Below are positions 23,641 to 26,840 of a stretch of DNA of 38,978 bases, piece by piece. Under the pieces are notes generated by a model that worked only from the letters and a program-made list of their open reading frames with translations, searched no databases and was not told where the DNA came from. The stretch is from an uncultured Clostridia bacterium (GTDB lineage: Bacteria > Bacillota > Clostridia > UBA1381). The stretch covers positions 1-38,978 of the forward strand of contig CATJNN010000145.1 of the NCBI GenBank assembly GCA_949742185.1. The letters are read 5' to 3'. A program made the position numbers and the translations under genes. Within the stretch, counting starts at the first letter, position 1. Every line of letters starts with the position of its first letter.

Positions 23641-23669
23641 TTGACATTTTTGCTGATTTATTGTAAAAT
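23641..23669 (+). promoter_or_regulatory. Sigma-A-type promoter of agrA-agrC
   Basis: TTGACA-17 nt-TAAAAT. Confidence 0.75.
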
Positions 23670-23722
23670 AATGTACAAATTAAGAGAATATTCTAAAATT
23701 ATGCTGGAAGAGAGATATTTAT

Positions 23723-24442
23723 ATGAAACTAAAGATAGCAATATGCGATGATAACGAGCAGATTCTAAACGAGGAATATAATATGCTTGAATTTATTTTG
23801 AAAGAGAGGTGCATTGAAGGGGTAGTTCATAAGTTTAGCGAGCCTGAGGAGCTGTTAAAATCAACGGAGATATATGACATTGTTGTTCTTGATGTTGAGA
23901 TGGGGAGGCTGAACGGCATTGAAACTGCCGATATGCTGAAAAAAGCAAATAAAGAGTGTATTATATTTTTTGTCACCAACTACGAGTCATATATTGACGA
24001 GGCTTTTAATAAGCATCCGTTCCGATTCTGGACAAAGCCGCTGGATAAACGAAGGCTGGACTACGGAGTGGAATGTGCTCTTAAAGAAATTAACGCTCGG
24101 ATTCCGCGTATAAATGTTCATATAGATAACACAAACCTGGATGTACCGGCTGGGAATATTATATATATTTATATGGAAAACAGACGGCTTCATTTAATAA
24201 CGGACAAAGGAGATATGGTAACGCGGGATACAATAAAAAGTATTGGCGAACAGCTAAAGGATATTGGCTGTTTTGGCAAGACGAGCCGCGGATATTACGT
24301 TAACTTTAATTATGTAACAGAATATGACCGCGAATACGTTTATTGCGAATATCAGCAGAAAAAATATAAGGTTGATATATCAAGACGTAAATACAATGAT
24401 TTTAATATTTCGTTTAAGAAATGGTTAGGAGGAGCAAAATGA
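23723..24442 (+). CDS. agrA: LytTR-family response regulator (AgrA-type)
   Basis: IAICDDNEQILNEEYNMLE, VVLDVEMGRLNGIETADML receiver; C-terminal LytTR-like IYIYMENRRLHLITDKGDMVTRDTIKSIGEQL. Confidence 0.85.
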   Translation: MKLKIAICDDNEQILNEEYNMLEFILKERCIEGVVHKFSEPEELLKSTEIYDIVVLDVEMGRLNGIETADMLKKANKECIIFFVTNYESYIDEAFNKHPFRFWTKPLDKRRLDYGVECALKEINARIPRINVHIDNTNLDVPAGNIIYIYMENRRLHLITDKGDMVTRDTIKSIGEQLKDIGCFGKTSRGYYVNFNYVTEYDREYVYCEYQQKKYKVDISRRKYNDFNISFKKWLGGAK

Positions 24443-25731
24443 GAATAGATTTAGGAATTATATTGGGAGTAGTATTAGCGTGTATATTTTTTATTTATTA
24501 CGCAGACACGTTGTTTTACAGAAAAATAAATAAGGTGGCGTGTTATTGTATTATAGGTGCTTTTTATGTTGCGCATCTATTTATTTGTGCATTTGGAAAC
24601 TTGCCTGTTAATGTTATTACACTTTTCTTAATGACGTTTTTATGTTTTATTTGTTGTTATCATATAGATTTAAAAAATGCATTATTACAGAGTTTTGTAA
24701 TTGTATTATTAGCAGATTTAAGTGAATTAATAATAGCTTTTATACCACATTTAAATATTTCACCAGTTAATACTAATTTTATAAATGCTACACAATCTTT
24801 GATCTTAACATTAACAAGCAAATCTTTATATCTTATAGGAATTATGATTGTAAGTAAATTGTTTGGTAAATATAAGAGTTTGTGTGGAACGCCATCGACT
24901 GTTTTAATTTTGGTGCCAATATTAACTATATGTTCTCTTTTTCTTATGTTGCAAATAAATATAACATCAAATTTATTATCAGGAATATGTTTATTATTAA
25001 TTTTAATAAATGTAGTATTATTGATTATTAATAAAAGAATGATTAATAAAGATTTAGAAATTGCTGAACTTAAAGCAGAAACTGCAAAAGAACATTTTCG
25101 TTTGGAGGAATATTTAATGTTAAAAGAAAAATATGAAGGTATGAATGTATTTCATCATGATTTTAAAGAGCATATGATTACGATAAATGCTTTAATAGAA
25201 AATAATATTGAGAAAGCAAAAGAATACATAAAAGCTATTTGTAAAGAAGAGGCGAAAGTACATTATGTTAAATATACCAATAATGATATGCTTAATATTG
25301 TACTCACAAAAAAGAAAGAAGACTGTTCAGATAGTGGAATAGAGTTTATAATCGACCCTATACAAGTGGATATGTCATTTTTGAGCGATATTGATACTGT
25401 ATCTTTGTTTTCAAATTTAATAAATAATGCTATTGAAGCTTGTAATGAGTGTGAAGAAAAAAAGATATTTTTAAATATAAGCGCTGCAAATAAAAATTTT
25501 ATTACCATGAAAATAGAAAATACTGTAGATAAAAAGCCGCTCGTTATAGATGGAAAGCTTCGCACGCATAAGAAAAATAAAGATTTGCACGGCATAGGAA
25601 TGAATAGCATCCGCAGAACTTTAACAAGATACGACGCTTCACTCGACTGGAATTATAATGCCGATAATAAGATATTCAGCGTAACAATAGTTTTGCAGAA
25701 TAATAAAAAAGATACCGCTAACGCAAAATAA
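24439..25731 (+). CDS. agrC: AgrC-type sensor histidine kinase (GHKL ATPase)
   Basis: Multi-TM N-terminus; FHHDFKEHMITINALIE H-box; NLINNAIEAC N-box; HGIGMNSIRR G-box; ATG 24439 overlaps agrA stop. Confidence 0.85.
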   Translation: MRIDLGIILGVVLACIFFIYYADTLFYRKINKVACYCIIGAFYVAHLFICAFGNLPVNVITLFLMTFLCFICCYHIDLKNALLQSFVIVLLADLSELIIAFIPHLNISPVNTNFINATQSLILTLTSKSLYLIGIMIVSKLFGKYKSLCGTPSTVLILVPILTICSLFLMLQINITSNLLSGICLLLILINVVLLIINKRMINKDLEIAELKAETAKEHFRLEEYLMLKEKYEGMNVFHHDFKEHMITINALIENNIEKAKEYIKAICKEEAKVHYVKYTNNDMLNIVLTKKKEDCSDSGIEFIIDPIQVDMSFLSDIDTVSLFSNLINNAIEACNECEEKKIFLNISAANKNFITMKIENTVDKKPLVIDGKLRTHKKNKDLHGIGMNSIRRTLTRYDASLDWNYNADNKIFSVTIVLQNNKKDTANAK

Positions 25732-25752
25732 CGACCATTCAGTCGATTGCTG

Positions 25753-25781
25753 TTTACATTTGAGAGCTTTTCTGTTATATT
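25753..25781 (+). promoter_or_regulatory. Candidate promoter for agrD-agrB
   Basis: TTTACA-17 nt-TATATT, 33 nt upstream of agrD start. Confidence 0.6.
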
Positions 25782-25813
25782 ATTCATGTAAGTTATTAAA
25801 AGGAGGGAACAAA

Positions 25814-25984
25814 ATGTTAAAAGAGTATTCAAAAAAATTCTTTAACAAAAGCATGCGTGTTATTATGTGTGCGATGCCCGCAATTTTAACAGCTTTGCTT
25901 GTATTTCATGCAAATTCAACTGCATGTCTTATAAACGGGCAGCCTGAGCCGCCAAAGGCTCTTAAAAATTATCGTAAATTCTAA
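25814..25984 (+). CDS. agrD: AgrD-like cyclic lactone autoinducer peptide precursor (56 aa)
   Basis: MLKEYSKKFFNKSMRVIMCAMPAILTALLVFHANSTACLINGQPEPPKALKNYRKF: basic/hydrophobic leader, ANSTAC core, QPxPPKALK tail; abuts agrB. Confidence 0.85.
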   Translation: MLKEYSKKFFNKSMRVIMCAMPAILTALLVFHANSTACLINGQPEPPKALKNYRKF

Positions 25985-26560
25985 ATGGATAATATATCCA
26001 GAAGAATTATAAGTTATGCTGTGAGCCATAGTTTTATACGGAAAGAACAATACGAGGAATATGTATATATTCTTACCATGCTCCTGAATGTATTCATCAC
26101 TGATATCACTCTTTTTTTAATCGGTGTTCTTATGAATATGCCATGGGAGTGTGTAGCATTTTGGCTAGTATACATGGTTTTACATAAATATTGCGGTGGG
26201 TTCCATTTCAGCACATCTTTGAAATGTTATCTGTCGTCATGTATTATGTGCCCGGTTGTTCTGCTTTTTATTCGATTCGTTCCGTTAGGTCCAATATGGC
26301 TCTTAGCAATAACTTTAATTTCTGCAATAATACTGCTTATTGTTTCTCCGGTTGAAGCGCAGAATAAACCGCTCGACGGAAAAGAAAAAGTTGTATTTGG
26401 CAGAATAGCAAGAATTTTAACGATAATTACCGTGATTTTATACGGAGTTATGTTATTTGCAAAGCTGTTTGCCGTTGCAAAAATAATATCAGCAGCTATT
26501 GTCTGCGTTATGATTTTTGCTGTGGCGGGCAAATTGTATCTTAAACATTTGCAAAAATGA
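25985..26560 (+). CDS. agrB: Accessory gene regulator B peptide-processing endopeptidase
   Basis: LVYMVLHKYCGGFHFSTSLKCYLSS matches AgrB His/Cys catalytic region; multi-TM; SPVEAQNKPLDGKEK. Confidence 0.92.
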   Translation: MDNISRRIISYAVSHSFIRKEQYEEYVYILTMLLNVFITDITLFLIGVLMNMPWECVAFWLVYMVLHKYCGGFHFSTSLKCYLSSCIMCPVVLLFIRFVPLGPIWLLAITLISAIILLIVSPVEAQNKPLDGKEKVVFGRIARILTIITVILYGVMLFAKLFAVAKIISAAIVCVMIFAVAGKLYLKHLQK

Positions 26561-26620
26561 AAATACAGAGGGGAATCGACCCTCCTCTATATTTTGCTGT
26601 TATAACACAAATTATAACAA

Positions 26621-26653
26621 AAAACTGGCAGGTTTATTCCTGTCAGTTTTTTT
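26621..26653 (+). terminator. Terminator of agr locus
   Basis: aaaactggcagg-tttatt-cctgtcagttttttt (one G-U pair). Confidence 0.82.
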
Positions 26654-26840
26654 GTTAACCGTATTATAAAGCAACAGTTAAGATAATGCGGGATTTAATA
26701 TCCGGCATTATTTTCATTGAATGTTTTGCCGGCAAGCAAAGAAAAAATAAACTGGTTTAATACCCGAATTTGTTTTTATATTATATGCTGGTTTCTTCTT
26801 ACCGTTTGGAATTGTCAGAAAAATATCCCTTTTTATTATT

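Follow-up and report, generated by a model that had tools for sequence, protein, structure and literature searches.

Several described Agr systems can be set beside the locus analysed here. The agr2 locus of C. difficile R20291 has the gene order agrACDB (PMC3754575). The AIP of C. thermocellum comprises residues S25–F29 of its precursor and ends before Y30, with a conserved proline at position 35, as confirmed by LC-MS/MS (PMC5322536). Closure of the ring by serine is established for C. thermocellum, S. pseudintermedius and E. faecalis (PMC5322536, PMC12312760); we found no report of closure by threonine in the literature searched. Ring size and closing atom are nearly fixed in these signals, which are mostly five-residue thiolactones. 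The natural ring sizes that have been named are five, six and nine residues (PMC4916163), six-residue rings being known (PMC4916163, PMC10301443), and our literature search turned up no natural ring of four residues.

Organization of the locus

The stretch of DNA analysed (38,978 nucleotides, hereafter the window) lies on contig 145 of a 2.27-Mb genome that is assembled in 321 contigs and is 81% complete. Four intact and tightly packed agr genes are found on its plus strand in the order A-C-D-B. Gene calls and Pfam domains bear out the complete locus proposed in a preliminary description of this DNA. The same description regarded the order as unusual, a view that does not hold, since C. difficile agr2 already has it (PMC3754575); in its gene order on one strand, the locus matches the agrACDB (C. 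difficile agr2-type) systems. The preliminary interval began at 23641, which is the start of a promoter −35 element and not of a gene. This agrA promoter (23641–23669, plus strand; read from the sequence) consists of −35 TTGACA (23641–23646), a 17-bp spacer and −10 TAAAAT (23664–23669), and no paired boxes of the kind described below were seen with it.

agrA (23723–24442, plus strand) encodes a 239-residue LytTR response regulator with Pfam matches to Response_reg (3e-12) and LytTR (1e-10). An alignment shows that its phospho-acceptor D57 and K105 are invariant among the compared members of the clade of 14 systems defined below. The agrA stop codon overlaps the start of agrC (ATGA). agrC (24439–25731, plus strand) encodes a 430-residue membrane histidine kinase with a hydrophobic N-terminal half, as judged by hydropathy, and a GHKL domain (Pfam, 1e-20); H240, N326/N330 and G385-I-G387, which include ATP-site residues, are invariant in the clade alignment. 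By eye, agrC is apparently more AT-rich over its sensor and linker portion (24500–25500) than the flanking agr genes, and the receptor part of the gene may possibly have been exchanged.

The agrDB promoter (25753–25781, plus strand; −35 TTTACA at 25753–25758, 17-bp spacer, −10 TATATT at 25776–25781) is followed by a clear Shine-Dalgarno sequence and by agrD (25814–25984, plus strand), which encodes a 56-residue autoinducer precursor. The agrD stop codon adjoins the start of agrB (TAAATG). agrB (25985–26560, plus strand) encodes a 191-residue membrane protease and cyclase of family PF04647 (2.3e-33), in which H74 and C81 are invariant in the clade alignment and match the positions of the known catalytic His/Cys pair. 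A hairpin with a T run (26623–26654, plus strand; read from the sequence) resembles an intrinsic terminator and marks the 3′ end of the locus. A search detected one AgrB in this genome, and sequence searches found no solved structure related to AgrB or AgrC. Judged by their translations, the flanking genes look like housekeeping genes, with a tadA-like deaminase upstream and an aldose-epimerase-like gene downstream.

The locus therefore combines an AgrB that carries the catalytic His and Cys, a membrane histidine kinase AgrC together with a LytTR-type AgrA, and, beside agrB, a short AgrD with the arrangement expected of Agr precursors, a Cys/Ser (here Cys) ahead of a conserved acidic or Gln-Pro tail; in these sequence features it agrees with AgrBDCA-type quorum-sensing systems. 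AgrD reaches 17.7 bits with TIGR04223, slightly below the curated cut-off of 19 bits. Such a score could indicate a decayed remnant that makes no signal, but the frames are intact, the catalytic residues are kept, and promoter, ribosome site and terminator are present, which makes decay highly improbable. We attribute the low score to the shifted core that is common to the clade.

Register of the AgrD core

For the comparison of AgrD sequences, Q denotes the Gln or Glu of the QPxxP tail and Q-1 the residue just before it. We compared 14 related AgrDs, including that of the window, with 107 other clostridial AgrDs, which were mostly TIGR04223 matches and were anchored on [QE]xxxP. In the window, the signal core Cys-Leu-Ile-Asn (25925–25936) is followed by Gly42 (25937–25939), so that Cys occupies Q-5 and Gly occupies Q-1 (25925–25939, plus strand). 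Asn34, Gly42, Gln43, Pro47 and an RKF-type end are invariant in the clade alignment.

The cores of the clade, written with the residues on either side, are A-CLIN-G (window, followed by QPEPP), A-SLAN-G (L033, followed by QPTPP), C-CIVN-G (L034), A-SSVN-G (L035), A-STMN-G (L036), A-TPIN-G (L037), S-TVMN-G (L038), A-SPFI-G (L039), A-SVAN-G (L105), S-CWGV-G (L040), S-CWFQ-G (L041), S-CWAV-G (L042), T-CWVY-G (L043) and G-CWIN-G (L104). Without exception, these 14 have Gly at Q-1 and one of Cys, Ser or Thr at Q-5. Of the 107 controls, 98 have their nucleophile at Q-6 (68 Cys, 26 Ser, 4 Thr). Tyr (66) or His (30) occupies Q-1 in 96 controls, and Gly in a single one. Most controls that lack a Q-6 nucleophile have Cys at Q-7; L192 has Cys at Q-7 and also at Q-5. 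Neither the AgrD of the window nor that of any other clade member thus has the Q-6 nucleophile and the Tyr/His at Q-1 that mark a conventional clostridial AgrD with a five-residue ring. The variable columns extend from Q-5 to Q-2 in the controls and from Q-4 to Q-2 in the clade, and the constant part starts at Q-1 in both.

Since a Cys, Ser or Thr occupies Q-5 in 14% of the controls, its presence in 14/14 clade members is not due to chance (for independent loci the probability would be about 1e-12, although these loci are related). The occurrence of the same architecture in homologous systems at 13 further loci leads to the same conclusion for the window. The preliminary description had singled out this core as unusual and the Gly before Q as odd; the core does differ from ordinary clostridial ones and the Gly is a true peculiarity, but the core is not isolated.

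In L087, one of the four controls with Thr at Q-6, a Cys at Q-7 is more likely to close the ring. The other three, L142 (ATFFTSY), L150 (ATNGIGY) and L171 (ATLWFFQ), are ordinary clostridial precursors in which Thr takes the ring-closing position, which suggests that threonine lactones may also be made outside the clade. The only control with Gly at Q-1, L077/L108 (G410), retains its nucleophile at Q-6 (CAWLF-GQEEEP) and its AgrB falls outside the clade; the usual leaving position can therefore hold Gly.

Ring boundary

Y30 of the C. thermocellum precursor corresponds to Q-1, and the residue preceding Gln therefore leaves with the tail in that system. The AgrD of S. aureus has the same distance between cut and Pro, and its AgrB needs a Glu at the Gln position. 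If the C. thermocellum rule is applied to the window, the ring would be C-L-I-N and Gly42 would leave; the column variability described above agrees with this boundary. The preliminary description had placed the boundary after CLING, on the assumption that clostridial rings normally lie directly ahead of Q-P-x-x-P. This assumption is incorrect, as Tyr or His intervenes in ordinary AgrDs and the known cut releases the residue before Q (PMC5322536). On balance, we favour a complete self-inducing Agr circuit whose signal has a four-residue thiolactone ring, cyclo(Cys-Leu-Ile-Asn).

A five-residue ring, cyclo(Cys-Leu-Ile-Asn-Gly), would arise in the same circuit if the clade AgrB cut one residue later, between Gly42 and Gln43. 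It would retain the usual ring size, and a moved cut would account for a Gly that became invariant along with the register shift; L133 (CFFIG) and L150 (TNGIG), both ordinary controls, also have a Gly at the end of the ring. This ring requires, however, that the cut has moved with respect to Gln and Pro, which are conserved and whose spacing to the cut is kept in C. thermocellum. The variable block stops ahead of the Gly, and L077 has its Q-1 Gly behind a conventional five-residue core. We consider the five-residue ring a serious but less probable alternative.

Returning to the four-residue ring, the controls with a Q-7 nucleophile have an unchanged tail, as if ring size varied against a fixed cut. 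More tentatively, the clade as a whole may make four-residue macrocyclic autoinducers, below any size that we found reported, in which Cys, Ser and Thr would serve interchangeably as closers to give thiolactones and lactones, including threonine lactones.

N-terminal end of the peptide

The residue at Q-8 is small in all clade AgrDs (13 Ser, one Asn), and so is that at Q-6 (seven Ala, four Ser and one each of Cys, Thr and Gly). Together they resemble the −3/−1 pattern of a signal-peptidase site that ends immediately ahead of the nucleophile. Because this S-x-A pattern is directly ahead of Cys in the window, a tail-less product is likelier than the ring with an [ST]A tail suggested initially, and the signal is probably made without a tail. 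Tail-less AIPs are known from C. thermocellum and Listeria (PMC5322536, PMC4916163).

The same region offers other candidates for ring closure, Thr36 and Ser35, or a linear product, with Cys38 then an ordinary residue of ring or tail. Q-7 is Thr in 11 of the 14 AgrDs and Q-8 is Ser in 13, but at Q-7 L037 has Val and L039 has Ile, and L039 also has Asn at Q-8, whereas Q-5 is Cys, Ser or Thr throughout. A signal-peptidase site would instead account for the small residues found at Q-8 and Q-6. Closure by Thr36 or Ser35 was rejected for this lack of conservation, and we regard this whole group of readings as very unlikely.

Phylogeny of the clade

In an IQ-TREE tree of 48 AgrBs, all 14 systems form one clade (support 99/97), within which at least five switches of the nucleophile between Cys, Ser and Thr have occurred. 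The system of the window, with Cys, pairs as sister with L033, which has Ser (support 96/87). Clade members belong to two families in two orders of the class. A core limited to one genus was therefore rejected, and so was a one-off core, given 13 relatives in the same register. The family to which this genome belongs also has Agr loci in the order A-C-B-D with conventional cores, as well as further A-C-D-B loci. A scan of contigs with AgrB alone yielded one relative.

By profile score, the nearest other AgrBs are those of L081, L083, L084, L090, L095, L126 and L133, and their AgrDs are conventional. These seven likewise carry Asn at Q-9, at the same distance from Gln as in the clade, which indicates that the nucleophile has moved one place nearer the fixed AgrB recognition tail and makes a deletion within the ring needless. 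Either a slide of the register or a set of compensating changes would give this pattern.

Viral copies were considered and rejected: the AgrD profile matched 75 viral-contig stretches by pattern and none by tblastn. Separately, distant relatives of AgrB (29% and 26% identity) are encoded in MT836496.1 and MT835721.1, two phage records of human faecal origin that lack annotation.

Paired boxes at the agrD promoter

Two AgrA-type boxes precede the agrDB promoter of the window (25714–25744, plus strand), ACCGCTAACGC at 25714–25724, within the 3′ end of agrC, and ACCATTCAGTC at 25734–25744. They are 20 bp apart, and the second begins 19 bp ahead of the −35 element. This geometry is clade-wide: with elements picked by eye, all 14 loci have two boxes, spaced by 20–22 bp, ahead of the agrD promoter, the second starting 19 bp upstream of the −35 element in 13 and 21 bp in one. 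The boxes begin with ACC (ACA in two). The L036 box ACCGTTTAG fits the LytTR-site consensus.

The two copies are alike within a locus and divergent between loci (combined shuffle test, p about 1e-9). The copies of the window are only weakly alike, the most degenerate of the clade, and by themselves fail to beat shuffles. By our own reckoning, the pair is centred near −60, where the AgrA direct repeats of S. aureus P2/P3 are also located (PMC4227749). Independently, we searched 11 clade genomes with the pattern ACC-N17-ACC-N16-TTKAC-N18-TANNAT, allowing one mismatch, and obtained 27 matches versus three for the reversed pattern. The paired boxes are very probably AgrA sites for autoinduction. 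agrDB appears to be a self-induced unit, with agrA-agrC on its own box-less promoter.

In the genome of the window, the pattern has two matches, the agrD site and a site on contig 274 (1204–1271, minus strand; G000, L219) whose two boxes, both ACCACTCAG, are spaced by 20 bp. The latter promoter is situated about 80 bp ahead of the ATG of a 359-residue protein, which begins with a signal-peptide-like segment and matches no Pfam family. It is a likely target of this Agr system.

A second box promoter was observed 10–90 bp downstream of agrB in seven of the 14 loci (L104, L034, L041, L042, L040, L035 and L036) and is absent in the window. Where the contig continues, several of these promoters are followed by a leader of 300–600 nt and then a secreted protein. 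The L042 and L040 leaders fold far better than shuffles (z of −8.1 and −5.5), and an Rfam search of the leaders gave no match reaching the gathering score. The arrangement is possibly RNAIII-like, the resemblance to P3-RNAIII being one of position only.

Proposed mechanism and significance

In the mechanism that we propose, AgrB would cut AgrD and close the ring between the newly formed C terminus and the Cys38 side chain, and the peptide would be exported, trimmed and accumulate extracellularly. In dense populations the peptide would activate AgrC, which would phosphorylate AgrA. AgrA bound to the two boxes upstream of the agrD promoter would then increase agrDB transcription in a positive feedback, and may also act at one other promoter in the genome, upstream of the Pfam-less secreted protein.

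The gene order was already known; as read from the sequences, what is unusual is a signal architecture common to a whole clade, shifted by one residue towards the tail. A clade in which the closer is shifted and close relatives exchange Cys, Ser and Thr amounts to a natural experiment in how AgrB cuts and closes its substrate and how AgrC reads the product. Threonine-closed autoinducers, if real, would add a class of which the searched literature gave no example. Additionally, the paired AgrA boxes offer a route to listing density-controlled genes in such uncultured gut bacteria.

Comparison with known systems

C. difficile agr2 shares with this locus four genes in A-C-D-B order, a LytTR-type AgrA and one presumed transcript or self-activated unit; unlike here, the accessible part of its report describes no paired-box promoter between agrC and agrD (PMC3754575). 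The C. thermocellum system Clo1313_2818 (PMC5322536) has an AgrD-type precursor, a tail-less ring and a Ser lactone of the kind predicted for several clade members, but differs in its five-residue ring, Q-6 nucleophile, Tyr at Q-1 and lack of neighbouring agr genes. The six-residue ring R6T0 of C. acetobutylicum (PMC10301443, PMC4916163) is, like the ring favoured here, of a natural size other than five; it is one residue larger, not smaller, and the genes are organized in agrBD and agrCA operons. S. aureus agrBDCA likewise has AgrA direct repeats ahead of the signal-gene promoter, centred near −60 (PMC4227749), but differs in gene order, in its tailed five-residue ring, in RNAIII and in having agrA and agrC inside the self-induced operon.
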